Part shown: in pieces, positions 6,577-22,062 of the stretch
Numbering within the stretch: the stretch's first letter is position 1
Layout of the letters: the number at the start of each line of letters is the position of its first letter
Origin: a virus
Reading direction: 5' to 3' (one strand)
DNA length: 33,432 bases
IMG/VR virus record: IMGVR_UViG_3300017613_000231
Coordinates: 1 to 33,432 of that record
Notes under the pieces: generated by a model
Told to the model about the DNA's origin: nothing
Database searches by the model: none
Seen by the model: the letters and a program-made list of their open reading frames with translations, nothing else
Position numbers and translations under genes: made by a program

Positions 6577-9500
6577 ATGTACGCTAATTTCATAGCAGAG
6601 AGTTGCACAGGAACAACAGGCGATTTAACGCTTACTGGGGCAAAATTTAATCACATAGCTCTAAGTGAAGCATTTGCTGATACAGACTCTGTATCTTATG
6701 TTGTTGAAGATGCTAATGGAGTTGATAAGTGTGGTGGTGTTGGTACTTATAACTCTGCTGGTACTATCACCCGTAATGACTCATGGACTTGGAACGGTAC
6801 ATCCTATAATGACTCACCTGGGGGCAACCTAACTCTTTCAGCAGGTGCTCATACTGTTAGAGTAACAGCTATTGCTACTCAATTAGATGGTTTAATCGAC
6901 CACTCTAACTTAGCTGATGAACATATTGATTGGTCTGCAACTAATGCTAAAAATGTCCATGCTGATAACTACACTGATACAGTGTATAACCATCCTGCAA
7001 ATCATCCACCAAGCATAATCACACAAGATTCATCTAATAGATTTGTATCTGACGCAGAAAAAACTACTTGGAATCATTCACATCCTTACTTAGGTTCTGG
7101 TACTGTTCACGATGATTTAAGCCCTGATGCTGATGAACACATTGATTGGACTCTTACAAACGCTAAGAATATTCATGCAGATAACTATACAGACACTGTA
7201 TACAGTCATCCAGCTAACCATCCACCAAGTATAATTACACAGGATTCTTCTAATAGATTCGTTACAGATGCTGAGAAATCTACATGGAGTGGTAAATCTG
7301 ATGCACATAGCCACCCTTATTTAGCAGATTCAATCAGTCATAATGATTTAAGTCCAACTGCTAATGAGCACATAGATTGGACAGAAGACCAAGGTGCTAC
7401 CAATATAGATGCAGGTAATTATACCAATACTGTTTATAGCCATCCTGCCAATCACCCAGCAACAATAATTACACAAACTTCTAGCTATAGGTTTGTCACT
7501 GATGCAGAGAAATCAACATGGAATGGAAAACAAGCTAATCTTGGCTTCACTCCTGAAGATTCAGCTAATAAAGGTGCAAATAATGGATATGCTGAGTTAA
7601 ATAGTTCTGGATTAGTCCCTACTAGCCAATTGCCTTCCTTTGTAGATGATGTAGTGGAGGCAGCAAATTTTGCAGCCTTACCGGGAACAGGTGAAACTGG
7701 AAAGATTTATGTAACAATAGATGATAATAAAACGTTCAGATGGACAGGCTCAATATATGCTGAAATATCAGCTTCATTGGCTCTAGGAGAAACTTCTACT
7801 ACTGCTTATCGTGGTGATAGAGGCAAAACAGCCTATGACCATGCCATATCCTCACATGATTATTCTGCAAGTGGACATACTCACGCAACATTAACTCCCG
7901 GAACAGGATTAAGCGGTTCATCTTATAATGGCTCTACGGCTAGAACTTGGATACTCAATTTTGATGAATTAACAGATATGACTGCTGATATAGCAGGTAC
8001 TACTGAATTTATATTACAAAATGCTGGAACTGAGAGTAGAAAAGCAGCTTCTGAAATTAAATTATCAGCCTTTAATGATGATTTAGTCTATAACAATTAT
8101 AGTCATCCTACATATACAGCTAGAACTGGGTCTTTTGATACTGGGCCATTAACAGGTGCAACAGTCATATCTGACATTAATTTGGATATGGTTAGTGATT
8201 CCACCGGGCATTTAACTTCAGGTTATTCTGCAGTTTCTACTAGGACATTAACATTAGCAGACCTTGGCTACACTGGGTCAGCTACTGCGAATGATTACTC
8301 TTTACCTAGTTCAGTTGTACATGACACTGAGTCTGGAGCATTACACGCCACAGATGCCTTACGTCTTTCAGGACATACTGTTTCTTTATATAAAGGTGAT
8401 GGTACTTTTGAATCTGTAACTATTCCAGATAACAATACTGTGTATAGCCATCCTAGTTACAATGGAGATGATTTCTCAGTAGACACTGGAGCATTATCTG
8501 GTGCTACTGTTGTATCAGATATTGATATTAATGTTACAACGGATGGTACAGGCCATGTTACTGATGCTAATGGGTCTGTAAGTACAAGAACACTTACAGC
8601 AGCTAATATTGGGGCTGTACCTGCAACATCAAGTGCATCATCAGCCGACCCGGATACTGTTTTTGCGACATCTATTCAAAGATTTGACCCACATGCGAAT
8701 TTACCAACAAATGCCCATCATGCAGTATGGACAGGGGGCAATCAGGGCAATGTTACTGGGCAGTTAGCTGTACATTTTACAACAGGTGAATTGTCTGTAA
8801 GAGCCTATAATACGTCATGGACATCATGGGCAACAGTACGAGATACATCTAATTTTGTATCAGGAGTTGATTTTGCTCCTGCTCACTCACATCCATATAA
8901 TAATTACACACATCCCAGTTATAATGGAGATGACTTTAATGTAGATACTGGTGCTTTATCTGGAGCCACTGTTGTGTCAGACATTGACATAAATGTGACT
9001 ACAGACAGCACAGGTCATGTAACAGATGCAAATGGGACTGTTTCAACTAGGACATTAACCGCTGGAAACATTGGGGCCGCTACATCTGGGCATGGGCATG
9101 GAAATATGCTCACTGATGCTAGAGAAGACAGAAGTGGAGGTAGTTTAGATACTATTGACACCAATGCTGAGTCAGGTTTTTATTATTGGGGTGGTACACA
9201 ACCTGCTACTGGCTCACCGGGTTGGAATTATGGCGGTATGTTGGCATTACATGATACTGGTCAAACTATCCAATTAGCTTTTGGTTCTTCTGCCGCAGGT
9301 CGAATGGCTCTCCGAAGAAAAGATTCAGGTACATGGTATGGATGGACAGAATTTGCTACTAAAGATTGGGTATCTAGTAACTTTGATGATTATTCACACC
9401 CAGCTTATTCTTCTACTAATATAAATACTTCTGGTGCAACAATAGTAGATATTGTTACTACTAACAGTACAGGGCATGTAACAGCATTAGGAACCAGAAC

Positions 9501-11907
9501 CTTGACCCTTGCTAATCTTGGTTATACTGGTTCTGCAACAGCAAATGATTACTCATTCCCTTATACAGTCTCATCTTCAGCAGGAAATAATACAGTAGTA
9601 CAAAGAAGCTCCTCTGGATACATTTACTGTAATTATATTAACGGCTCAAGTAGTGCTTCTACTACAGGTGCAAGTTCTGGAATGGGTAATTTTATTGGTA
9701 ACAATGGTACTGACACCTTTATGCGGTCATATAATGCTTCTGCGGTAAGGTCATTAATTAATGTTGCAAATGGTGCAAATAATTACAGCCATCCAACACA
9801 TCCAGGAGATGACTTTAGTTTAGATACCGGGCATTTATCCGGGGCTACTGTTATAGATGACATTGATATTAACGTTAGTACTGACACATTGGGACACGTA
9901 ACTGATTGCAATGGTACGGTAGCTACTAGAACTCTGACATTAGCAGACCTCGGTTACACAGGTCACACTGCTGCAACTAATAATACTGGAACAGTAACCT
10001 CTGTAGGTACGGGTACAGGTCTTGATGGTTCGTTTACTACATCAGGAACAATTACACTCGATTTGTCTGAATTAACAGATATGACGGCTGCTGTCTCAGG
10101 CACAGTTGATGAAGTAATCTTACTGGATAATGGTGCTGAAAGAAGAAAGAGATTTTCAGAAATCGGATTATCTGTATTTAGTAATGACCTTGGGTTAAGT
10201 AATTACACCCACCCAACACATCCGGGTGATGATTTTTCTATTGATACTGGACACCTAAGCGGTGCGTACGTTATTGATGATATCGACATTAATGTTACTA
10301 CTGATGGTGAAGGGCATGTCACAGATTGTAACGGTACGGTCGCTACTAGACAGTTGACTTTAGCTAATCTTGGGTACACAGGTTCAGCTACAGCCAATGA
10401 TTATTCACATCCCAGTTCTGCAATAGCGGCAGGTACATTTGGTTCTACTGCTAATGGCACAAAAATTGACCAAATAACTGTTGATGAAGATGGGCATATA
10501 ACTGCAGTCACTACAGGAACAACTGGTGATGTTACTCAAGTAACTGGTACAGGTACAGTTAGTGGATTAACATTAACTGGAACGGTAAATACTTCAGGTT
10601 CCCTTACATTAGGTGGCACTTTATCTTTAACTTCAGGAAATGTTACTAATGCTCTTGGATATACACCATACCAAGAATCTACAGCATTAAGTGCTACCAC
10701 TGGTACATTTACCAGTAGCGTATCTGCTGATTATTTTCATGCTAATTTGAATAGTGGTGGTAGTTGGGATACTAATAACAACACAGGTTTATTAGTTACA
10801 GCTAGTTCAAGTGGTAATGCTTACAATATCTTAAGAGTTAATACAGATAATGGGTTTAAGTTACAGACTCTAGGTGGAACTGGTGGTACACAGAGATGGT
10901 ATACAAATAATACTAACTATATAACTTTCTCAGGAACAACCATCACTGCATCACTGTCAGGCAATGCCACAACAGCTACTACTGCCACTACCGCTAATAG
11001 CGTAGCTTGGTCTAATGTGACAGGGCAACCTACGATACCTACCAATAACACCCAGTTAACTAATGGTGCAGGTTATATAACCTCTTCTGGAAATACTTGG
11101 AGAAGCATATCTAGCTCAGTTAGTTCTACATCTACATCAGTCTCTGCATCAAGTTCCGCAGTAAAAACTGCATATGATTTAGCAGCAACTAAAGGCACAT
11201 CGAATTTAGCACTCGGTTCATCATCTTCTACAGCATATAGAGGTGATAGAGGAACAACTGCTTATAATCACTCTCAAGCGGCACATGCCCCAAGTAATGC
11301 AAATTATTATGTACACCCAACTGGAAGTGGTAATGGGCATGTACCTTCCGCTTCTACTTCTAGTAGTGCTGCTTCTTATTACAATGCAACTTTTATATCA
11401 TCAGGTACGATATATCATTGTCAAACAAGCACACAAGTACAAATGAAACCTAGTACCGGTAGTATATATGCAGGTGGTTCAGGTATATTTGAAGGTAATG
11501 TTTACGCTTACTATTCTTCTGATGAAAGATTAAAAGATATATCTGAAGACCTTACTAAATGTATGGACGCTGTCAACCAATGGAGGCCTATCAAATATAC
11601 TTGGAATGATAAAGCCAAAGAAACTACACATATATTCGATGAGGCTGGTACTGAAATAGGATTGTCTGCACAGAGTGTACATGCTACACATCCTGAATTA
11701 GCTCCACTTGCTAATTTTGATAGAAAGAGAGATGGGGACGGTAACCCCCAATCAACTGTATCGAAATCAGGAGAAAATTATTTAACAGTAGATTATGGTA
11801 GAACAGTCGCAGTACTTACGGGCGCTCTCCAAGAAAAAGATGAGGAAATCCAAGACTTGAAGAAACGTATGGAAAAAATTGAAGCAATTTTAGAGGAACT
11901 TCTTTAA
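6577..11907 (+). CDS. Giant tail fibre with C-terminal S74 self-cleaving chaperone domain
   Basis: 1776 residues behind a GGGGAAGG ribosome site. Domains in order: an N-terminal beta domain (about 1-105) likely for virion attachment; three about 75-residue shaft repeats (about 114-315); a fibre motif TAYRGDRGKTAYDH (about 408-421), recurring as TAYRGDRGTTAYNH (about 1552-1565); six copies of a shaft unit with GHVTD and TRTLT (about 528-1275); two knob-like regions (about 701-770 and 842-930, each with a W-x-x-W pair); and an S74 domain from about 1646. That domain shows SSDERLKD (S1647-D1654), later GLSAQSVHATHPE, and a terminal coiled coil (about 1746-1776). In S74 families a Ser-Lys dyad (here S1648 and K1653) cleaves just before the serine after trimer folding, which would release about 129 residues. 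It probably binds the host receptor. Confidence 0.88.
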   Translation: MYANFIAESCTGTTGDLTLTGAKFNHIALSEAFADTDSVSYVVEDANGVDKCGGVGTYNSAGTITRNDSWTWNGTSYNDSPGGNLTLSAGAHTVRVTAIATQLDGLIDHSNLADEHIDWSATNAKNVHADNYTDTVYNHPANHPPSIITQDSSNRFVSDAEKTTWNHSHPYLGSGTVHDDLSPDADEHIDWTLTNAKNIHADNYTDTVYSHPANHPPSIITQDSSNRFVTDAEKSTWSGKSDAHSHPYLADSISHNDLSPTANEHIDWTEDQGATNIDAGNYTNTVYSHPANHPATIITQTSSYRFVTDAEKSTWNGKQANLGFTPEDSANKGANNGYAELNSSGLVPTSQLPSFVDDVVEAANFAALPGTGETGKIYVTIDDNKTFRWTGSIYAEISASLALGETSTTAYRGDRGKTAYDHAISSHDYSASGHTHATLTPGTGLSGSSYNGSTARTWILNFDELTDMTADIAGTTEFILQNAGTESRKAASEIKLSAFNDDLVYNNYSHPTYTARTGSFDTGPLTGATVISDINLDMVSDSTGHLTSGYSAVSTRTLTLADLGYTGSATANDYSLPSSVVHDTESGALHATDALRLSGHTVSLYKGDGTFESVTIPDNNTVYSHPSYNGDDFSVDTGALSGATVVSDIDINVTTDGTGHVTDANGSVSTRTLTAANIGAVPATSSASSADPDTVFATSIQRFDPHANLPTNAHHAVWTGGNQGNVTGQLAVHFTTGELSVRAYNTSWTSWATVRDTSNFVSGVDFAPAHSHPYNNYTHPSYNGDDFNVDTGALSGATVVSDIDINVTTDSTGHVTDANGTVSTRTLTAGNIGAATSGHGHGNMLTDAREDRSGGSLDTIDTNAESGFYYWGGTQPATGSPGWNYGGMLALHDTGQTIQLAFGSSAAGRMALRRKDSGTWYGWTEFATKDWVSSNFDDYSHPAYSSTNINTSGATIVDIVTTNSTGHVTALGTRTLTLANLGYTGSATANDYSFPYTVSSSAGNNTVVQRSSSGYIYCNYINGSSSASTTGASSGMGNFIGNNGTDTFMRSYNASAVRSLINVANGANNYSHPTHPGDDFSLDTGHLSGATVIDDIDINVSTDTLGHVTDCNGTVATRTLTLADLGYTGHTAATNNTGTVTSVGTGTGLDGSFTTSGTITLDLSELTDMTAAVSGTVDEVILLDNGAERRKRFSEIGLSVFSNDLGLSNYTHPTHPGDDFSIDTGHLSGAYVIDDIDINVTTDGEGHVTDCNGTVATRQLTLANLGYTGSATANDYSHPSSAIAAGTFGSTANGTKIDQITVDEDGHITAVTTGTTGDVTQVTGTGTVSGLTLTGTVNTSGSLTLGGTLSLTSGNVTNALGYTPYQESTALSATTGTFTSSVSADYFHANLNSGGSWDTNNNTGLLVTASSSGNAYNILRVNTDNGFKLQTLGGTGGTQRWYTNNTNYITFSGTTITASLSGNATTATTATTANSVAWSNVTGQPTIPTNNTQLTNGAGYITSSGNTWRSISSSVSSTSTSVSASSSAVKTAYDLAATKGTSNLALGSSSSTAYRGDRGTTAYNHSQAAHAPSNANYYVHPTGSGNGHVPSASTSSSAASYYNATFISSGTIYHCQTSTQVQMKPSTGSIYAGGSGIFEGNVYAYYSSDERLKDISEDLTKCMDAVNQWRPIKYTWNDKAKETTHIFDEAGTEIGLSAQSVHATHPELAPLANFDRKRDGDGNPQSTVSKSGENYLTVDYGRTVAVLTGALQEKDEEIQDLKKRMEKIEAILEELL
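6916..7521 (+). repeat. Three tandem shaft repeats in the large fibre
   Basis: Protein-level repeats within the 1776-residue fibre. Each copy carries EHIDW, then a D-N-Y-T-[DN]-T-V-Y core, H-P-A-N-H-P, I-I-T-Q and R-F-V-[ST]-D-A-E-K. Copies begin near 6916, 7134 and 7363, spaced about 218-229 bases. Nucleotide identity is only partial, so the copies are old. They probably extend the trimeric shaft. Confidence 0.8.
8158..10410 (+). repeat. Six dispersed shaft units of the GHVTD / TRTLT type
   Basis: Six related protein segments in the large fibre contain a SGATV-[IV]-x-DI core, then TD-x-x-GHVTD-x-NG and TRTLT-x-x-[DN][LI]G. They lie near 8158, 8488, 8950, 9420, 9830 and 10250. The units are separated by other domains rather than strictly tandem. 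The fourth is shortened. Units two and three are almost identical in protein sequence, as are five and six, which suggests recent pairwise duplication. Confidence 0.8.
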
Positions 11908-12515
11908 TGGCTCTACCTGCATCTGGTCAAATTACCTTAAATGAAATGCATATAGAAGCAGGTGGAGCTAATGGTGCATCTTGTACTGTTAACGATTCTG
12001 ATATACGTGGTTTAATTGGTAAAGGTAGTGCCGTACAGATGACATTTAATGAGTGGTATGGTGCTAGTGCTTTGCCTAATATTATCTTTGATACTGATGG
12101 CACAGCAGGTACTGTTACGCAAAATGATACCGGTGCTGCATGGGCTGAAGCAGGTATAATGTTCAATTCCACGGGTTCATGTATATCATGGAGTGAAAAC
12201 ATACAGAATGATATAGGCGATGAACTTATTGATTGGTTAGATGAAATTGCAACAGGTAATGGTGCTGATTTTGAGATTAGATATACAGCATTCTCAGGCA
12301 CTGTCAATGGGTTAAATACAATTACTTCTTCATACCAACGCCTAGATGTGAATAGACGCATCTATGTTTCTTCAGATGGGGGTGCATTTACAGTAAATTG
12401 TACAATACAAATCAGGAAATATAACAGTTCAGACACTCCAGAAGAACGGGACATCTATTTAAGGGCATATGTTAATGAAAGTTCACCAGTAGGGTCAGCA
12501 CCGGGAGTCTTCTAA
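11907..12515 (+). CDS. Fibre-like protein with conserved MALPASGQITL N-terminus
   Basis: 202 residues. The ATG overlaps the large-fibre stop (TAATG) and has GAGGA upstream. The N-terminus MALPASGQITLNEM, followed by DSDIRGLIG and MTFNEWYG, is a module found at the start of many phage tail-fibre proteins, where it may serve as the attachment part. The remaining 140 residues form a beta-rich domain without a family I know. Its stop overlaps the start of the radical SAM gene, again as TAATG, so the fibre, this protein and the enzyme are likely translated as one unit. It could be a short accessory fibre. Its proximity makes it one possible substrate of the enzyme. Confidence 0.7.
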   Translation: MALPASGQITLNEMHIEAGGANGASCTVNDSDIRGLIGKGSAVQMTFNEWYGASALPNIIFDTDGTAGTVTQNDTGAAWAEAGIMFNSTGSCISWSENIQNDIGDELIDWLDEIATGNGADFEIRYTAFSGTVNGLNTITSSYQRLDVNRRIYVSSDGGAFTVNCTIQIRKYNSSDTPEERDIYLRAYVNESSPVGSAPGVF

Positions 12516-13174
12516 TGTATATACGTATGACTGATAGATGTAATATGAGCTGTAAGCATTGTATTTTTTCTTGTAAAAAAGGAAAAAATGGCACTGATAT
12601 GTCTTTAGCTATATTTAAAAAGGTATTACAACTATCGGATGGAACGAGTTGCTTAAATCTTGGTGGAGGTGAACCTACAATTCATCCACAATTTTGGGAA
12701 TTTCTGGATTTAGCTATAGCTTCAAACCACTCTAAAGTGTGGATGGCGACCAACGGTAAAAGAACTAAAATAACCAAAAAATTAATGGATTTGCATGTTG
12801 ATGGGGTAATAGATATGCAAGTGTCTAGAGATGCTTGGCATGACCCAATAAATCCTGAAATATTTGATTTATGTAGAGAAAAAGGTATTTCAGAAAGAAG
12901 AGTGCATTTGATTTCTGACAATGGTTCTGCAACTAAGAATAGTGTGTGGAATACACGAGACTGTCATTGTGCTTCATGTCATGTCGATATGTTTGGTGAT
13001 GTAACACCTTGTGCTTGTGATAATGCACCTAAGATATTTAATGTCAATGATAAGGATATAACAAAAGATGCCTTTTCATGTGTACTTAATATGAGTAAAA
13101 GATTAGGTTGTGTAGTAAACTGGGCTGCATCAGACTTAGCAAGACTTAAACGGAGAGTATTGAATGATAACTGA
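12515..13174 (+). CDS. Radical SAM enzyme with Cys-rich SPASM/Twitch-like C-terminus
   Basis: 219 residues, coupled to the fibre-like gene by TAATG and preceded by GGGAG. C9, C13 and C16 form the CX3CX2C motif (RCNMSCKHC) that binds the 4Fe-4S cluster of radical SAM enzymes. G50-P54 (GGGEP) is the SAM-contacting motif. QVSRDAWHD (102-110) matches the later barrel-strand motif of peptide-modifying members. The C-terminus has C150, C152, C155, C166, C168, C189 and C199, including CHVDMFGDVTPC. This is the usual shape of a SPASM or Twitch auxiliary-cluster domain (Cys, then Gly-x-Val-x-Pro-Cys). The family generates a 5'-deoxyadenosyl radical, and SPASM members mostly modify peptides or proteins. 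At 219 residues it is short for the family (often 300-450), so it is compact. The substrate is unknown. Two A6 runs near 12575-12588 could be slippage-prone. Confidence 0.88.
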   Translation: MYIRMTDRCNMSCKHCIFSCKKGKNGTDMSLAIFKKVLQLSDGTSCLNLGGGEPTIHPQFWEFLDLAIASNHSKVWMATNGKRTKITKKLMDLHVDGVIDMQVSRDAWHDPINPEIFDLCREKGISERRVHLISDNGSATKNSVWNTRDCHCASCHVDMFGDVTPCACDNAPKIFNVNDKDITKDAFSCVLNMSKRLGCVVNWAASDLARLKRRVLNDN

Positions 13175-13403
13175 TAAACAATCACTAGAGGATGAGTTAT
13201 TACTACTTGCAGCAAAAGTAGAGGCAGCTTCTTTACACTTTATATCACAGATAGACTTAGGAGTAGATGCAAAGCTATTACAGGTATCTGCAGGATATAG
13301 TGGACAACCTACAAGATACCCTACATGGATAGGTAGAGCTAGTGGGCAAATTACAATAGACGGTGAAACAACAATAATAGATTCTTTGGAGGATGTAGAA
13401 TGA
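13164..13403 (+). CDS. Small protein after the radical SAM gene, candidate partner or substrate
   Basis: 79 residues. The ATG lies inside the 3' end of the radical SAM gene, with CGGAGAG about eight bases upstream. An N-terminal helix (SLEDELLLLAAKVEAASLHF) is followed by a stretch rich in Tyr, Pro, Arg and Trp (YSGQPTRYPTWIGRASG) and an acidic C-terminus. It shares the hexapeptide ASGQIT with the 202-residue fibre-like protein, which may be chance. Helical leader plus aromatic core is loosely like a modified-peptide precursor, but no known precursor family is recognised. It could equally be a chaperone, a recognition partner or an unrelated structural protein. It overlaps the next gene by four bases (ATGA). 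Confidence 0.6.
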   Translation: MITDKQSLEDELLLLAAKVEAASLHFISQIDLGVDAKLLQVSAGYSGQPTRYPTWIGRASGQITIDGETTIIDSLEDVE

Positions 13404-13669
13404 CAGCAGTAACAGATACTATAACTATTCTTGAAACATTGGCAGGTAAATCCCTAGCCAATACTCAGATGCTAAATGTGGTAGAAAATTTCATAAACTA
13501 CCAAGATGAGCAAGGCTTTACTAATGAAGAAAAAGCGCAAGAGTTTTTAGATAAAACACTTACATTCATTAAGAATAGAGCTAAAGCTGGTGCTAGTAAT
13601 AAAGCAGTTGCCGATAATTATGCTGTAGTTACTGCAGCAGCAGAAGCTGCAGTAGTTGACTTAATATAA
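13400..13669 (+). CDS. Small helical protein, paralogue of the next gene
   Basis: 89 residues, coupled to the upstream gene by an ATGA overlap and with a GGAGG ribosome site. The N-terminus MTAVTDTITILETLAGKSLA matches that of the following gene (MTAISDAKLIMETLAGKTLA). Both then have a helix, a K-A-Q-[EA]-FLD motif and an Ala-rich end. The sequence is predicted mostly helical by eye, with no membrane segment. The duplication directly after a radical SAM gene makes the pair candidates for substrate or accessory proteins, but they could be small virion components. No family is recognised. Confidence 0.65.
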   Translation: MTAVTDTITILETLAGKSLANTQMLNVVENFINYQDEQGFTNEEKAQEFLDKTLTFIKNRAKAGASNKAVADNYAVVTAAAEAAVVDLI

Positions 13670-13681
13670 TAGGGGAGTAGC

Positions 13682-13981
13682 ATGACAGCAATATCAGATG
13701 CAAAACTAATAATGGAAACTTTAGCCGGGAAAACTTTAGCAGGTACTCGTATGGTAAGATTTGCTGAAGATTATATTAGAGGCAAGCAAGATATGAAACA
13801 TGCTGAAGCAAATCCAATTGATTTGGATACTGCTAGTAACAGCCAAAAAGCTCAAGCTTTTTTAGATGAATTAGTAGACACAATAAAAGATGTTGCTCGT
13901 CAAGGTGGTGAAATTAAAGCCAGACAAGATAATGCGACAATTGTAGCTGAAGCAGGTAATTCTGCCGCATCGGATTTATAA
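13682..13981 (+). CDS. Small helical protein, paralogue of the preceding gene
   Basis: 99 residues after GGGGAG. It shares the first 20 residues' pattern and the K-A-Q-A-FLD segment with the preceding gene. It carries about 12-14 extra residues in the middle (around KHAEANPIDLDTASN) and has a different charged C-terminal half (VARQGGEIKARQDN). The two probably arose by tandem duplication and then diverged. There are no cysteines and no membrane segment. Function unknown. The context is the same tail-fibre and radical SAM transcription unit. Confidence 0.65.
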   Translation: MTAISDAKLIMETLAGKTLAGTRMVRFAEDYIRGKQDMKHAEANPIDLDTASNSQKAQAFLDELVDTIKDVARQGGEIKARQDNATIVAEAGNSAASDL

Positions 13982-13987
13982 TAACTT

Positions 13988-15334
13988 ATGAATATGGCAG
14001 CTACAGCGATTGGTGCTGCTGCCATTGGTGCAGCAGGTACAGGTGATATACGTGGTCCGTTAACGTCATCTAAGTCTACTTTTACACAAAATGCACTAGG
14101 AGTAAAAGGTAACCTAAGTAAATTTGGGTTAGCTGACTCAATTAGTAGCTCATTCACTCAAAGCATCACAGGTACACTTACCATAGATGCTATTGATGGT
14201 GAAAGTACTAGTATTAGGCCTTTATTCCAACAATTCTTATCTGGTGATTTACTTACAGAAGCTATTGCTGGTGACTTAACCTCATCTAAGCAATTATTCA
14301 CACAGAATATACAAGGCTCTTTAGAGCAAGACGCCATTATTGGCTCAATTGAGCATATAGGTACAACATTTCAGCAAACAGCTAATGGCACTATTACAAT
14401 TGATGCTATTTCTGGTGATATAACAACTACTAGGCCGCTATTCCAACAAACAACATATGGCTTCATCACTAAAGTATTTGGGGCAGCTACTAGTAGTCCA
14501 TTATTATTTACTCAGAGTGCATCTGGTAGCTTTTCTGTTGATGCAATTATTGGTGATATAACCAACACAGCTCCTAGCTTTACCCAAAATGAGTCAGTAG
14601 GTACAGTAGGTGCTGAAGTTATTACTGGTTTTGGTACAAACACTTCAACTACCTTTAATCAAAATGGTCTTGCTGCACTTTCACAAAAAGCTGTAACAGG
14701 AGATGGTACATCCACATCCACCTTATTTACTCAAAGTGCTATAAGTAACCTGTCAATTGATTCTATTATTGGATTTAGTGTATCCACAGTACCAAGTTAT
14801 ACTCAAAACGCTCTTGGTACTATTGGTGCTGAAACTATAAATGGTATAGGTACATCCACTAATACACTATTCAATCAAAGTGCTAGTGGTTCATTCAGTA
14901 TTGATGCTATTACTGGGTATGCAACATCAGCAGCCCCAGGATTTAATAATGATGCAGATGGTATAGTTACCTTTGAAACTATTAATGGTACTGTATCCAA
15001 CCAATTACCAACATTTAATCAAAGTGCATTAGGATTAAAAGAGTTTTTCTTTGTTGGTAGCGTTGCATCTACAATGCGACCACATAACAGCTGGGCGTTT
15101 GCTACAAATATAGATGCCAGCCCCGCAATTAACCCATTTGAAATAGCTACTAGTGGGTTATTACAAGACGGTTTCCTATATGATACCTGTCTGACTGCAA
15201 ATATTACTCAGAGAGGTACTGCTAGTATTGCAGGTACATTATCTGCTAATATTCAAAGCATAAGCACAGCAAACAAAGTTAGTAAATTAACTGCAACCGT
15301 AAATAACAAATTAGAGGCTAAATTATGTCTGTAA
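13988..15334 (+). CDS. Repeat protein with about fourteen 24-residue F-x-Q units, probable beta-solenoid
   Basis: 448 residues. No good ribosome site precedes the ATG at 13988, and an ATG at 13994 is an alternative. The N-terminus is Ala/Gly-rich. Residues about 28-360 consist of repeats of about 24 residues with the pattern L-F-[TNQ]-Q-[SN]-x-x-G-x-[LFI]-x-[IV]-D-A-I-x-G-[DEY]-x-[TS]. The rest (about 361-448) is non-repetitive. The regular period and alternating hydrophobics suggest a beta-solenoid or beta-roll stalk. It stands between the small paralogues and the Ig-like and adaptor genes in the tail module. A tail-spike stalk or adhesin is plausible. The 3' end overlaps the next ATG. No family is recognised. 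Confidence 0.7.
   Translation: MNMAATAIGAAAIGAAGTGDIRGPLTSSKSTFTQNALGVKGNLSKFGLADSISSSFTQSITGTLTIDAIDGESTSIRPLFQQFLSGDLLTEAIAGDLTSSKQLFTQNIQGSLEQDAIIGSIEHIGTTFQQTANGTITIDAISGDITTTRPLFQQTTYGFITKVFGAATSSPLLFTQSASGSFSVDAIIGDITNTAPSFTQNESVGTVGAEVITGFGTNTSTTFNQNGLAALSQKAVTGDGTSTSTLFTQSAISNLSIDSIIGFSVSTVPSYTQNALGTIGAETINGIGTSTNTLFNQSASGSFSIDAITGYATSAAPGFNNDADGIVTFETINGTVSNQLPTFNQSALGLKEFFFVGSVASTMRPHNSWAFATNIDASPAINPFEIATSGLLQDGFLYDTCLTANITQRGTASIAGTLSANIQSISTANKVSKLTATVNNKLEAKLCL
14069..15068 (+). repeat. About fourteen degenerate 72-base units in a repeat protein
   Basis: The units are clear in protein sequence (each with an aromatic-x-Gln anchor and a D-A-I-x-G turn) but diverged at the DNA level. 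Most are 24 residues, with one or two at 22, 23 or 25. Copies seven and twelve (TQSASGSFSVDAI, NQSASGSFSIDAI) are the most alike. Confidence 0.8.
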
Positions 15335-15690: not shown

Positions 15691-16407
15691 ATGTTGTTAT
15701 CAGATATATTTGAGCACTTAAATTATGGCGAATTAGCACAGTTATCTATAGGTGGTGCTGATGAAGATGGCATACCTGTTACAGCTTATCCTGCTATTGT
15801 GTCACATCTAAATATGGGATTAATTGAATTATATAAACGTTTACCCCTAAAGATAAAAAGTATACAAATACAAGAGTATTCTTCAATTAGTACGTATTAT
15901 TTGCAACCAGATTTTGCGGCTAATAGCGGTTCAGCAGAACCTATTAAATATTTATTGGATTCAGCTACTAATCAATTTACTGGCGATATACTAAAAATAG
16001 AGCGAGTTACTAGTAGTGATGCCACAGAAATAGGCAATCTACCTTTAAATGATAATAATAGTGATAATAGTCTGTACACACCAGCATATGACGCATTAAC
16101 TGCGTATGAACCTGATGATTCCACAATACTTACTGTTTATTATAGAGCAACACCGACTAAAATAGTTGCTGCTGGGTTGGACCCAACAACAACAGATATA
16201 CCAATACCTGATAGTGTTTTGGAAGCGTTGGTTTATTTTATTGCTGCTAGAGCACATACAAATACTCCTGCCCTTGAAGGGCAACCAAACGTTAGTTCTA
16301 TGTATTTACAGAAATTTGAAGGAAGTCTTCAGCGAATAGAAAATGCTGCATTAATAGAAAATGATAATACAGCTAACGAGAAATTAGATAGTAATGGATG
16401 GGTTTAA
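15691..16407 (+). CDS. Probable head-tail adaptor (connector) protein
   Basis: 238 residues, AGGA ribosome site. An N-terminal helix (LLSDIFEHLNYGELAQL) is followed by a region with IVSHLNMGLIELYKRLPLK, a beta-rich insert, and a C-terminal helical pair (SVLEALVYFIAARAHTNTP, then YLQKFEGSLQRIE). This order (helix, helix with L-N-x-G-L-x-E-L-Y, beta, LEAL and A-A-x-A-H-x-x-T) is that of small phage adaptors that seat on the portal ring. It is separated from the portal here by the 5.6 kb fibre gene. The stop abuts the fibre ATG (TAA ATG). Confidence is moderate for the adaptor call and high that it is a real gene. Confidence 0.65.
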   Translation: MLLSDIFEHLNYGELAQLSIGGADEDGIPVTAYPAIVSHLNMGLIELYKRLPLKIKSIQIQEYSSISTYYLQPDFAANSGSAEPIKYLLDSATNQFTGDILKIERVTSSDATEIGNLPLNDNNSDNSLYTPAYDALTAYEPDDSTILTVYYRATPTKIVAAGLDPTTTDIPIPDSVLEALVYFIAARAHTNTPALEGQPNVSSMYLQKFEGSLQRIENAALIENDNTANEKLDSNGWV

Positions 16408-19400
16408 ATGGGAACTAAGGGTGATACTGGACCAGCGGGACCAAGGGGCTACCCTGGTTCTAAAGGTTTAACAGGTCTTACAGGTGATAAAGGTGATATT
16501 GGAGATACTGGTGCTGGTGTCACTATTACAGATAACGGTGACGGTACTTTTACTGTCACTGGTTCTAACGGTTCAATCGTACTCAGGGACGGGACAGCAC
16601 CCACGAAGGGACAAGATTACTTTGATGGAGTCTCTGGGGATTTTGTTTCTTTCGTATATTATAGCGTTCTTAACGGTAGTCCAGTTCCTGACATAACAGA
16701 TGGTACAGGGAGTTTTGATGGATTGTTGGAGTCGATGCCTGAACCTATTAACACATGGCAAGATACCCCAGATTATACTGATGGCTGGACTACTTACGTA
16801 TCTACTAATCGTTATAAGCATACTTGGATTGGTGGTGGTTCAGGTTCTTGGGTATTAAGGGGTCCTTGGTCTACACCTAAGATACATAATGACCCAAGTG
16901 TCACTAATACGCAATTTGTATCATATGCCTTTATAAGACACACTAATGGAGTACCTACTACTCCTGATGGTGGTTCTTATGCTAGTCCTGTACCTACAAC
17001 AGCTGGTTGGGAAGATGGTATTCCTGCTGGGGTTGGTCCTGCTTTCATGTCTAAACGCTTGTTTACAAGTGATGGTGTTGGTCAAGATGCCTCATGGACA
17101 GTTCCTAAGTTACTTGGTGCAACTGGTACAGGCACTAAACATCAATTTGGTCCAACTAATACAGGTCCTTGGGAAGATGTTCCAGCTACAGACGATGAAT
17201 GGATGGTTGTTTGTACTTTAGGTTCTGATGAAGTATGGACTTGTGACACAGCTAATCCTATTAAAATTAAAGGTGAGGTTGGTGTAACAGCACAAACTAT
17301 ATACAAAGCTTATGCTTTTAAGCGTTCAGCTGTACCAATAGCTGAAAGACCTACAGGTGGTGAGTATGCTTTTCCACAACCAGTAGATGGTGTTGTATCT
17401 GGTTGGACAGAGAATATACCATCAGGTACTGCTAATTTATACATTAGCACAAGAATGTTTGCATCAGATGGAGCAGAGCCTCCACAGGATACAGAATGGA
17501 GTGAATCAGTTTTATTCTCCGGAGATGCTGCAATTGTATTTCGTATAGATTCTGACTCACAAGTATTTGCATTTGATGAAAATGATTCTAATCCAGTACC
17601 GACACAAATTAATTGTACTGCACTCAAACAAGGCATTATTAATGATGTTGATTGGACAACAGTACCAGATTTATCATTACCTGTTGAAAGAACAGATGCC
17701 CTAGATACCTTTTTCATAACTGCAGCAGAGTTTGGTACTAACAGTAATGTACAAGTAACAGCCACTGCTGGAGCATACACTGACACAATTACTATTCTTA
17801 AAGTCAAAGATGGGTCAGCAGGTCCTTCAGGAACAGCATCAGATACTGTGGAAGTTAGATTCCAGTATGCCCCAGATAATAATGGTGGAGCTGAACCAAC
17901 AGTTGGATGGCACTCTAAACCTATAGTAGTAACAGACAAATGGTTAAGAGAGGCTACTTTCATTAACGGTACATCAACCCCCACTGGCACTGATGCTGAT
18001 TACTCAGCTGGCGTAAAATTTGTAGGTGATGATGGCTCTGATACATATACTGATTTTTGGTTTAGTGATACTGGTACAGGTAACCCTGACACAAATCCCG
18101 CTGATTGGGGACAGATACAAACATCTTCAGATTTTTATGTAATAACACAAACCACAACTAATGGTGTTACTGGTGCTTGGGGTGCAGTAACTAATATTCG
18201 TGGTGAAGATGGTGTTATTGGTAAGTATTTTGAAACTTTATTTGCTATTTCATCTAAAGATACAGCACCAGTACATGATGCCACCACTCCAGTATATCCT
18301 GATTATGATAAATTCGCAGATGACCCTGTTGGATGGACTAATGACCCTAACTTATCCCCTACAGGTGATGAAGTAATATGGGCTATCACTGCTACAAAAA
18401 TACATACTGGTGAATTGGACTCAGGAATTACTTGGCCTGATTCTGCAGTACAATGGGGGTCTTATATACCCGTAAGAGGTACTGACTATAATGATGGTAC
18501 TGGTGTCTATGTAAGTAAAGTATATAAAGAGGCTCCTCTAGGCAGTCCACCAGCTGCTCCTACAATCAATACAGGGTCGTTTGATGGTACAGACGAAGTG
18601 ATGCCTAATGGTGGTTGGATAGACGACCCTATGCAACCTGGGGTTGGTAATGCAGTTTATGTATCTCAGTATATTTATGTATCTTATCTAACTGTAGGCG
18701 TTAATACATGGCCTACACCGGGAACTTGGTCAGACCCTATACAATATCTCTATATTCCTACATTAGGAACAGATTATACTAATGGTACTCCCGGCATAGA
18801 TGGAGATGGCTCATTTCATTCTTATATTTTTAGAAACTACCCCCAAGGAACAGATGTTTCTCAAACACCTCCTTCTGGGGGTTCATATGCTGGTCCGGGA
18901 ACAGAAACTTTACCCACAAATTGGTTAGATGACCCTACAGACCCTGATGATGACGAGGTAACATGGGTTTCAGAAAGAACATATGTAATGATTGCTGGTG
19001 TATGGCAAACACCACCTGCATGGAGTGACCCAGCTAAATACTCAGCAATGACGACATTATTGTTGGCTATTGAGGACATAAATAGTATACATACTGACTT
19101 TAATGGTGCTAATTACACTTTTAGTAATGAAGGTGGGACAGTGACGCCTTGGTTTGGTGCTACTCCAGTTACAACAGCTTGTACTTATCAAATAGCTGGG
19201 GGGGCAGTTGCAGGTGAATACCATGAGCGTACATTAAATAATTTAAAAGTAAGTATAAGTAATGCCAATGGAACAGAAGGGCAATTCACTTTTTCATCAT
19301 CAGGTGGTTCTTGGAATACAGATATAGAAACATTTACTATTATATGTACTCATACTGTTTCTGGACAATCAGCCACTATAAATACTTCATTAAAAAAGAT

Positions 19401-22062
19401 AAAAGCTGGTAAAGCAGCTGTACAGAACACAGCCAATAGATTAGATGTAGCCTATGGTGTAGATGATGCAGGTACTACTAATAGTTATCCTCCCGGTGCT
19501 GACCCTACTGGTATGGAGTGGGTAGGTACTAATGTAGTTACTTGGATTCCTCCTGCAACTGAACCTGCAATATCCACTACTTATACTGATTATGAGTGGG
19601 TTAATTTCAAAGGACCTCAAGGTATACAAGGCGTACAAGGACCAACTGGTCCTTCAGGTGCTCAAGGTGTTGCTGGTGATGACGGTGCTCCAGTAGTATT
19701 TAAGGGTTCTTATCTTAATTTAGCTGCTTTTGAGGCAGCTTACACTCCTACAAATGGGTTTGCTTATTATAACCAAACAGATGCTAAGAGTTACGTGTAT
19801 CAGGACTCTACTTGGTATCAAATGTCTGTTGATGGTGTTCAAGGGTCAAAAGGTGACCAAGGTAATCCCGGTGGAGATGGTGCTGATGGATTACCAATAG
19901 TGTGGAAAGGTGAATCTTCAAGTCCTCCCGGAAGCCCCGTTGAAAATTGGGTGTACAAAGACACAGATAATAGTCAGGTATATATTTATACTGGCTCTGC
20001 ATGGGAAGTAATGGTATTAGATGGCTCTGATGGAGCTACAGGTGCTCAAGGAGCAGACGGAAATAATGTATATATTACTTACAATGATAATGCTTTAACT
20101 GCTAATCCGGGAACTCCTCCAGCAGGTAACGGTAATTCAGGTATATGGCATACAGCACCTACTGCTGCTTGTAACTGGATGTCTCAAAAAGTAGCCACTA
20201 GTGCTTCAGCTGGTGTATGGGGTGCTCCAATACAAATAGCAGGTGCAGATGGTCAAGATGGTGGTGATGGTCAAGACGGTTTATCCATTATATGGAAAGG
20301 TAATCTAGCCAGTGCTCCCTCAAGCCCAGTAGAGAATTGGGTATACAAAAATACAGGTGATGGACAAGTATATATCTATGACGGATTTGCTTGGGAATTA
20401 ATGGTTAATGACGGTACAGACGGTGTAGATGGAGCAAAAGGTGATGATGGATATCAAGTATATATTACATATAATGATAACGCCATTGGCTCACAACCAT
20501 CAGCCCCAACTGGTTCAGGTATAACAGGTGGTTGGCATACAACACCATCAGCCGCTTGTAATTGGCTTTCACAAAAGGTAGCTGCCACACAAGGTTCTGG
20601 TACATGGGGTGCAGCTATACTAATAGCTGGAAGTGATGGAGAAGATGGTACTAATGGTACTAATGGCGTCAATGGTATAAATGGTACTAATGGGAATGAT
20701 GGTGATGATGGAGCAGCAGGACTAAGTAACAGAGTAGATTTTGCTTATGCTAATACTATTAATGGTACTGGTGATGTGCAATATCCTACTGGCAGAATTG
20801 CTACTGCAAACTATAGCCCAGCCACCCCACATGAAAATAACCTCTATATGGGTACTAATGTAGAGACTTGGTATCAAGATGCTACAGAACCTAGTGTAAG
20901 AACTTCTGCCTCTTACTATGAATGGTCAAGATATACTGGTGAAGAAGGTCCAATGGGGCCATCTGGAACAGATGCTTTGACTATTCTTAATTATAAACCA
21001 GCTGTGTCTCTTGCAGCTAATAATGCTGGTGTTATTGCAGATTACTCACAAAGTGGCACAACATTAAGTGTCTATGAAGGGGAAACTAAGTTAAATTATA
21101 ATGGGGCTGGAACAACGGCTGGTACTTGGGGACTCAGTTCTATTAATGATGTGAATATTACTAATGGTTCAGTGTCAGGCAGTGGTGATGCTCTAGTAGC
21201 AGCACACTCTAATATGACACAAGATACTGCGTTTATTACTTATGCTATGGCTGGTAAAAGAATTAATGGTATTGATTTTGTTGCACAAACAACCCAAGTG
21301 TTCAGTAGAGCACAACCGGGAGAAGATGCAGTAAGTGTATTATTGACTAATAGCTCCCATACCATACCAACAGACAGTGCTGGTGCTAATGGCGATTACA
21401 CAGACTCAGGTACAACTATAAGCCTATTCCAAGGTACTACACAACTTAGTCACAATGGTAGTGGTACAAGTAATGGTACATTTAAAGTTACTGCTGCTGG
21501 CAATAACATTAGTGCATCATCTATTACCGATAGTGGTGACAATGCTATAATGAGTGCTGCTAGTAATATGACAACAGGTACAGGTGTATTAACAGGAACT
21601 ATTACATACACTATCACAGGTAAAACACTAATCGGTAACGCAATTAACCTAACAGCTATACAATCTTTCAACAAGAATTTAGCAGCTGTACAGTCTGAGC
21701 CTATTATAAATTCAGGTGGAGGACCAACACCAACAACATGTACTCATGTGTCTGTTGGTAACCCAATAGAGATTAAATGGAGCTACCAACAGACAGGAAG
21801 CCAAGGAACTGCATACCCTTGGCATGATGTTACATACACGCTATATAGAAATGGTACACCGATAGATAGTTTTTATTCGGCTCAGAATCTAAATACAGAA
21901 TATGAACCTGGGTTTGGTTGGTTATTTGCTGTCTCTGGTCAACAGACATATGTAGACCACCCCGGAGCAGGTTCATATACTTACACACTAGGTAAGTCGT
22001 ATACTTGGGGTGGCACAATTCTTAAGAATCAAGGGTCAATAGTGACTAATGAAACAGTATAA
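16408..22062 (+). CDS. Giant modular tail fibre with collagen-like segments
   Basis: 1884 residues. It opens with a Gly-X-Y collagen-like stretch (residues 2-35) and has shorter ones at about 1068-1095, 1143-1163, 1204-1220, 1333-1349 and 1408-1440. Between them are at least five versions of a 75-90 residue module with a GGSY-type turn, a GW-x-[DE] core, a YVS or YIS strand and a W-S-[DE]-P end. There are also two 130-residue tandem repeats (from residues 1162 and 1292). The final 370 residues are Ser/Thr-rich beta domains and a globular tip (from about 1770, with W and Y clusters). Collagen-like and repeat domains form trimeric shafts in phage fibres, so the C-terminus is likely the receptor-binding end. 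There is no S74 domain here. A 59-base spacer precedes the portal. Confidence 0.85.
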   Translation: MGTKGDTGPAGPRGYPGSKGLTGLTGDKGDIGDTGAGVTITDNGDGTFTVTGSNGSIVLRDGTAPTKGQDYFDGVSGDFVSFVYYSVLNGSPVPDITDGTGSFDGLLESMPEPINTWQDTPDYTDGWTTYVSTNRYKHTWIGGGSGSWVLRGPWSTPKIHNDPSVTNTQFVSYAFIRHTNGVPTTPDGGSYASPVPTTAGWEDGIPAGVGPAFMSKRLFTSDGVGQDASWTVPKLLGATGTGTKHQFGPTNTGPWEDVPATDDEWMVVCTLGSDEVWTCDTANPIKIKGEVGVTAQTIYKAYAFKRSAVPIAERPTGGEYAFPQPVDGVVSGWTENIPSGTANLYISTRMFASDGAEPPQDTEWSESVLFSGDAAIVFRIDSDSQVFAFDENDSNPVPTQINCTALKQGIINDVDWTTVPDLSLPVERTDALDTFFITAAEFGTNSNVQVTATAGAYTDTITILKVKDGSAGPSGTASDTVEVRFQYAPDNNGGAEPTVGWHSKPIVVTDKWLREATFINGTSTPTGTDADYSAGVKFVGDDGSDTYTDFWFSDTGTGNPDTNPADWGQIQTSSDFYVITQTTTNGVTGAWGAVTNIRGEDGVIGKYFETLFAISSKDTAPVHDATTPVYPDYDKFADDPVGWTNDPNLSPTGDEVIWAITATKIHTGELDSGITWPDSAVQWGSYIPVRGTDYNDGTGVYVSKVYKEAPLGSPPAAPTINTGSFDGTDEVMPNGGWIDDPMQPGVGNAVYVSQYIYVSYLTVGVNTWPTPGTWSDPIQYLYIPTLGTDYTNGTPGIDGDGSFHSYIFRNYPQGTDVSQTPPSGGSYAGPGTETLPTNWLDDPTDPDDDEVTWVSERTYVMIAGVWQTPPAWSDPAKYSAMTTLLLAIEDINSIHTDFNGANYTFSNEGGTVTPWFGATPVTTACTYQIAGGAVAGEYHERTLNNLKVSISNANGTEGQFTFSSSGGSWNTDIETFTIICTHTVSGQSATINTSLKKIKAGKAAVQNTANRLDVAYGVDDAGTTNSYPPGADPTGMEWVGTNVVTWIPPATEPAISTTYTDYEWVNFKGPQGIQGVQGPTGPSGAQGVAGDDGAPVVFKGSYLNLAAFEAAYTPTNGFAYYNQTDAKSYVYQDSTWYQMSVDGVQGSKGDQGNPGGDGADGLPIVWKGESSSPPGSPVENWVYKDTDNSQVYIYTGSAWEVMVLDGSDGATGAQGADGNNVYITYNDNALTANPGTPPAGNGNSGIWHTAPTAACNWMSQKVATSASAGVWGAPIQIAGADGQDGGDGQDGLSIIWKGNLASAPSSPVENWVYKNTGDGQVYIYDGFAWELMVNDGTDGVDGAKGDDGYQVYITYNDNAIGSQPSAPTGSGITGGWHTTPSAACNWLSQKVAATQGSGTWGAAILIAGSDGEDGTNGTNGVNGINGTNGNDGDDGAAGLSNRVDFAYANTINGTGDVQYPTGRIATANYSPATPHENNLYMGTNVETWYQDATEPSVRTSASYYEWSRYTGEEGPMGPSGTDALTILNYKPAVSLAANNAGVIADYSQSGTTLSVYEGETKLNYNGAGTTAGTWGLSSINDVNITNGSVSGSGDALVAAHSNMTQDTAFITYAMAGKRINGIDFVAQTTQVFSRAQPGEDAVSVLLTNSSHTIPTDSAGANGDYTDSGTTISLFQGTTQLSHNGSGTSNGTFKVTAAGNNISASSITDSGDNAIMSAASNMTTGTGVLTGTITYTITGKTLIGNAINLTAIQSFNKNLAAVQSEPIINSGGGPTPTTCTHVSVGNPIEIKWSYQQTGSQGTAYPWHDVTYTLYRNGTPIDSFYSAQNLNTEYEPGFGWLFAVSGQQTYVDHPGAGSYTYTLGKSYTWGGTILKNQGSIVTNETV
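19891..20640 (+). repeat. Tandem repeat of exactly 130 residues (390 bases) in the modular fibre
   Basis: Copy one starts at 19891 (residue 1162, LPIVWKG) and copy two at 20281 (residue 1292, LSIIWKG). Both contain a PVENWVYK core, VYIY, E-x-MV, a short Gly-X-Y stretch, VYITYNDNA, GWHT or GIWHT, AACNW-[ML]-SQKVA and W-GA-x-I-x-IAG. The period is exact to the base. The copies are diverged, so this is a duplication retained for shaft length or for ligand binding. Confidence 0.85.

Follow-up and report, generated by a model that had tools for sequence, protein, structure and literature searches.

A radical SAM gene among tail-fibre genes

What does a radical SAM enzyme do among the tail-fibre genes of an N4-like phage, and is its substrate encoded beside it? 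The question is raised by the window (the whole stretch of DNA analysed, 33,432 nucleotides of IMG/VR record IMGVR_UViG_3300017613_000231). A sequence-only reading had described there a 219-residue radical SAM protein with a SPASM/Twitch-like, Cys-rich C-terminus, and had proposed that it modifies a tail or small protein of the phage, or a host target, late in infection. The motifs and cysteines listed in that reading, the TAATG coupling to a fibre-like gene and the overlap with the next gene are all present at 12515-13174 on the + strand. The features of the gene are as follows.

12515..13174, + strand: radical SAM / Twitch-like enzyme gene, 219 aa (PF04055, 45-member family, AlphaFold models)
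12503..12507, + strand: GGGAG Shine-Dalgarno-like site of this gene, 7 nt before the start codon (from sequence)
12539..12562, + strand: CX3CX2C (C9/C13/C16), invariant in 45/45 family members; expected ligands of the SAM-binding [4Fe-4S] cluster
12662..12679, + strand: GGGEPT, residues 50-55, SAM-binding motif, invariant in 45/45
12824..12841, + strand: S-x-D-x-x-H, residues 104-109, after strand 4, aligned with SYDEYH of EpeE
12962..13018, + strand: compact Twitch-like motif C150-x-C152-x8-G161-x4-C166-x-C168, found in relatives; likely site of an auxiliary [4Fe-4S] cluster
13079..13081, + strand: C189, fifth conserved cysteine of the auxiliary region, in 44/45

Profile search supports the superfamily assignment: residues 4-108 match Pfam Radical_SAM (PF04055) with E 2e-10 and 41.5 bits (gathering cut-off 29.5), and the CX3CX2C and GGE motifs both lie in this core. 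GGGEP occupies residues 50-54 and QVSRDAWHD residues 102-110, within which D106 is kept in 43 of the 45 family members. The ORF is a real, intact radical SAM enzyme gene and no chance match. Its ATG (12515-12517) and the TAA of the upstream gene (12513-12515) have one A in common, and its 3’ end runs 11 nt into the next gene, which starts at 13164. The GC content of the gene is 0.344 compared to 0.387 for the window and its GC3 resembles that of the neighbours, so that composition is uninformative as to a foreign origin. In scans for promoters and terminators, promoter-like sites were fewer than in shuffled sequence, and nothing was found that isolates the radical SAM gene.

The C-terminus agrees with the sequence-only reading in part. 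A full SPASM domain has C-x(9-15)-G-x4-C followed by CX2CX5CX3C and a further C, providing the cysteines for two auxiliary clusters; a Twitch domain is a truncated SPASM with C-x(9-15)-G-x4-C and the cysteines for one. The window protein has C150-x10-G161-x4-C166 together with conserved C152, C168 and C189; only the first half is present and the second half is missing. The Pfam SPASM model does not match the 219-aa protein and matches one of ten family members tested (E 0.008). The C-terminus thus appears to be a compact Twitch-like half-SPASM and not a full SPASM domain. Among its cysteines, C150, C152, C166, C168 and C189 are conserved, and C155 and C199 are not. Because of this conservation, four or five of the C-terminal cysteines probably hold a single auxiliary cluster.

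A family of compact radical SAM/Twitch proteins

Relatives of the protein were collected by successive IMG/VR scans and a plasmid search. A tblastn search of 50,697 phage records found four Vibrio siphophages with 38–41% identity over most of the length, and the family as assembled contains 45 sequences (42 after removal of near-duplicates). The members share the layout C-x-C-x8-G-x4-C-x-C followed by a later Cys (C189), written for the family as C-x(1,2)-C-x(7-9)-G-x4-C-x-C near the C-terminus. C9, C13, C16, H15, GGGEPT, TNG, S104, H109, G137, C150, G161, C166 and C168 are conserved in 45/45 members, and C152 in 43/45. Scans of the same kind also picked up 33 radical SAM proteins outside the family, and none of these has the motif. 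Two Vibrio phage copies differ with pN 0.13 and a near-saturated pS of 0.79, and the gene is therefore under strong purifying selection.

The family occurs in diverse non-schitovirid phages and on one megaplasmid, pDF308 of Deferribacter desulfuricans, where the member (L161:8001-8816) lies near TnpB transposons; because of this member the family is not strictly viral. No close full-length relative was found in 84,980 bacterial and archaeal species genomes by a scan that relies on short patterns, and Pfam, NCBIfam, PHROGs and PADLOC contain no full-length model of the family. The Vibrio siphophage proteins (PG28, VH2_2019, V-YDF132, KarBoss; ~38% identity) have the same Cys layout. They come from siphoviruses and lie in a non-tail neighbourhood, and their annotations go no further than radical SAM or hypothetical protein; one homologue is already named in a genome table (PMC9413028). 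Radical SAM genes in phages have been known before, as in Campylobacter phages CP220 and CPt10, which have 11–12 per phage in an exchangeable module (PMC2853527). Those proteins show only ~23% identity to the window protein (E 3e-5 to 5e-4). No paper on this family or its motif was found in the literature searched. What is defined here is a radical SAM family spread among phages, with five cysteines in a compact auxiliary region and without a full-length model in these four libraries.

The gene lies in a variable cassette of a schitovirid

The portal of the window phage matches phrog_1216 (E 6e-249), and portal, tape measure and major head protein mark it as a member of the Schitoviridae, in agreement with the earlier assignment to the N4-like phages. 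The portal shares ~59% identity with the portals of Klebsiella phage Pylas and Escherichia phage Pollock. The radical SAM gene follows the 1776-aa fibre and the 202-aa fibre-like gene, and precedes three small genes, a 448-aa repeat protein and phrog_2125.

6577..11907, + strand: giant tail fibre, 1776 aa, with C-terminal S74 intramolecular chaperone (PF13884, E 4e-9); start of the cassette
11907..12515, + strand: fibre-like gene, 202 aa, coupled by TAATG, upstream of the radical SAM gene (phrog_26746, E 4e-14)
13164..13403, + strand: 79-aa protein, 11-nt overlap with the radical SAM gene; no relatives found
13400..13669, + strand: 89-aa protein, paralogue of the next gene (39% identity, E 9e-20)
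13682..13981, + strand: 99-aa protein, paralogue of the preceding 89-aa protein (39% identity, E 9e-20)
13988..15334, + strand: 448-aa protein made up of repeats, closing the variable cassette; other genes take its place in the closest relative covering this region
15691..16407, + strand: conserved schitovirid structural gene, downstream edge of the cassette (phrog_2125, E 5e-52)

The N-terminus of the 202-aa product resembles a gene adjoining the tail-fibre gene of Alteromonas phage AD45-P1. The 79-aa and 99-aa proteins have no relatives in the 50,697 phage records. The 448-aa protein contains many degenerate repeats of the form FTQ...G...DAI.G, and beyond the cassette 16408-22062 encodes an 1884-aa protein with collagen-like repeats, a probable tail fibre.

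An assembly chimera is unlikely because an IMG/VR contig from a second metagenome (3300017598) has the same genes in the same order at 99.9% DNA identity over 18 kb. In the closest relative covering the region (portal 76%), two unrelated genes (304 and 830 aa) occupy the cassette interval. The sequence-only reading had placed the gene outside the usual N4-like plan, and this holds: a profile search found it in 0 of 29 schitovirid IMG/VR records, while the same profile detects the gene in six records expected to have it, three of which were not in the profile build. No schitovirid was recognised among 16 phage-collection matches to the protein, and none of the 37 family-bearing IMG/VR records besides the window has a schitovirid-type portal (two gave weak partial-profile matches). 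Host-recognition modules of schitoviruses are known to swap between phages and to bear auxiliary genes, for example a CheY-like one (PMC10579305). The simplest reading is that the enzyme is a horizontally acquired accessory gene that rode in with, or inserted into, an exchangeable host-recognition cassette. Such cassettes can bear enzymes that need not serve the fibre.

Fold and closest solved relatives

AlphaFold models were obtained for the window protein (mean pLDDT 75) and for the L010 relative (pLDDT 85, pTM 0.83). Both models predict a shortened barrel followed by a Twitch-like part. A family profile searched against the PDB gave EpeE (YydG), a peptide epimerase of Bacillus subtilis (PDB 8ai1-8ai6), as the best match (E 4e-15 with 10 sequences, 2.5e-16 with 14). 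EpeE aligned through the Twitch part as no other solved protein did; the match after it (9.7e-9) covered the core alone. EpeE was also first in the two Foldseek searches (E 5.8e-7 for the window protein, 6.5e-9 for L010), and SkfB, a SPASM-class RiPP maturase, was the second protein for the L010 model (E 5.8e-7). By profile and fold the closest solved relatives are thus peptide-modifying enzymes, in support of the sequence-only reading on this point. For the window model BtrN, SpeY and viperin were also among the matches, with BtrN having the highest target-normalised TM-score (0.57).

EpeE contains two [4Fe-4S] clusters and epimerises peptide residues, and a Cys probably quenches the radical (PMC8326336). 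The family shares with it the radical SAM core, the SYDEYH-like motif and the C...DGEIYPC half-SPASM. The window protein differs in that ~47 core residues before the Twitch part are missing, and the family has CxC...CxC where EpeE has a single C and CC. In the mutant chains of EpeE the C223A site directly follows the conserved GEIYPC cysteine. This position aligns with the A/G beside C166 or, if gapped, with C168: the window protein has A at the H-donor position and its relatives usually A or G, with C168 one residue later, and an epimerase reaction is therefore not implied. The EpeE/YydG epimerase model (TIGR04078) matches only residues 3-111, with 30.6 bits compared to a cut-off of 300. To judge by these alignments, members of the family may act in the manner of a peptide-modifying Twitch enzyme, yet we do not class them as EpeE-type epimerases. 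SkfB is larger, a full RiPP maturase with an N-terminal extension, and the window gene has no linked precursor.

Neighbourhoods of the family genes

In the relatives’ loci, replication, nucleotide-metabolism and small early-type genes surround the radical SAM gene. Among the best 25 families per tally, the recognised large neighbours elsewhere are mostly helicases, polymerases, nucleases and nucleotide enzymes, together with two terminase matches and one head-tail adaptor. No neighbour family within 8 kb recurs in more than 4 of the 42 loci. When whole genomes of 11 records were compared, any other family was common to at most four; those common to at least three were only RecA-/helicase-like, ThyX-like and deaminase-/kinase-like nucleotide genes. 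A co-inherited partner gene was rejected, the shared families being of such general replication and nucleotide types.

A RiPP-type linked precursor was likewise rejected. Around 14 family genes, small ORFs no more than 1.5 kb away showed likeness barely above reversed controls (top 54 vs 49), with no recurring small neighbour clearly above these in a BLAST-level comparison that could overlook tiny, fast-evolving substrate peptides. The single top pair, the 79-aa protein of the window and an overlapping ORF of L017, we take as chance. The family loci thus differ from that of EpeE, with no linked precursor peptide operon found.

Several single loci are worth recording. In L189:5328-8001 an array of ~180-aa paralogues (four 65–71% identical and one more distant) runs directly into the family gene; these are possibly substrates, or simply a gene array. 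In three Vibrio siphophages (L001, L003, L004, near 6.6–8.0 kb) the radical SAM gene is at, or one gene from, speE, which encodes a polyamine aminopropyltransferase, another enzyme of SAM-derived chemistry. In L185:2131-7726 the 7-deazaguanine genes QueC, FolE and canonical QueE adjoin the family gene. L182, L194 and L197 have genes 2–3 kb from the family gene that are alike and resemble GP88; the GP88 model (PF17338) has matches to three large neighbours in the family loci.

Proposed function and alternatives

Taken together, the reading that we favour by a little is a functional compact radical SAM/Twitch enzyme, horizontally acquired and accessory in the host-recognition cassette, whose most likely substrate is a peptide or protein that does not come from the neighbouring fibres. 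The cluster on C9/C13/C16 would cleave SAM to a 5’-deoxyadenosyl radical, which would abstract a substrate hydrogen. A second [4Fe-4S] cluster, on C150/C152/C166/C168 and/or C189, may accept or relay an electron or position the substrate, most likely a side chain or alpha-carbon of a peptide or protein. Action in trans on such a substrate is favoured by the resemblance to EpeE and SkfB, combined with the fact that no linked partner was found. Because the family recurs in unrelated phages without such a partner, the enzyme probably acts on something most hosts supply, and the substrate could be a host or widely shared factor; a host target, as had been proposed, is possible. Expression late in infection is suggested by the position of the gene only. 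If the substrate is found, protein or metabolite radical chemistry would join the phage toolkit. A bolder extension, which we put forward as doubtful, is that such widespread minimal phage enzymes act during infection on a host protein or common factor, in which they would introduce an epimer, a dehydro residue or a crosslink. That this would be a viral host-takeover or counter-defence chemistry, undescribed in the literature searched, is equally speculative.

The substrate class is read from similarity, and radical SAM cores look alike across very different reactions. A serious rival, in our view unlikely yet better placed than any other, is that the enzyme oxidises or rearranges a small molecule (a sugar, nucleotide or cofactor, as do BtrN, SpeY and MoaA) or feeds DNA modification. 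BtrN and SpeY are Twitch enzymes that likewise have one auxiliary cluster in a truncated SPASM, as is predicted for the family; the substrate of BtrN is an aminocyclitol (PMC9012708). That these small-molecule dehydrogenases are fold matches counts against a peptide substrate. BtrN is similar in size and predicted fold to the window protein, the relatives lie near nucleotide and replication genes, and the position beside speE in several Vibrio siphophages fits as well. Against this, a sequence-profile search at E 1 does not recover BtrN, the matches listed for the better L010 model do not include it, and the Cys spacing of BtrN and SpeY differs from that of the family. A canonical QueE accompanies the family enzyme in L185, which makes QueE (CDG synthase) activity an unlikely role for the family as a whole.

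Less probable still is the original suggestion that the enzyme modifies an adjacent tail or small protein (6577-11907, 11907-12515 or the 79/89/99-aa products) during virion assembly. The TAATG coupling and the 11-nt overlap, the pair of small paralogues downstream, the peptide substrates of the closest relatives and the tandem array directly upstream of the family gene in L189 would all suit it. However, family members occur without any such neighbours, no neighbour family recurs, and the 79- and 99-aa proteins stand without relatives in the phage collection. The sequence-only reading had held that relatives never near tail genes would count against its proposal, and the neighbourhoods compared are mostly non-tail. 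As far as this comparison can tell, the radical SAM gene is not tied to the tail, and the relatives argue that the tail fibre is not the substrate.

Finally, it is very improbable that the enzyme is viperin-like or serves counter-defence by acting on nucleotides, and no viperin is known to us that has a Twitch part with four cysteines. PADLOC pVip models match 10/10 members tested (best E 4e-14) and NCBIfam viperin matches with E 1.5e-11, but at 44 bits compared to a cut-off of 180, and these matches are to the core, stopping by about residue 132 of the window protein, in a stretch that many radical SAM families match.
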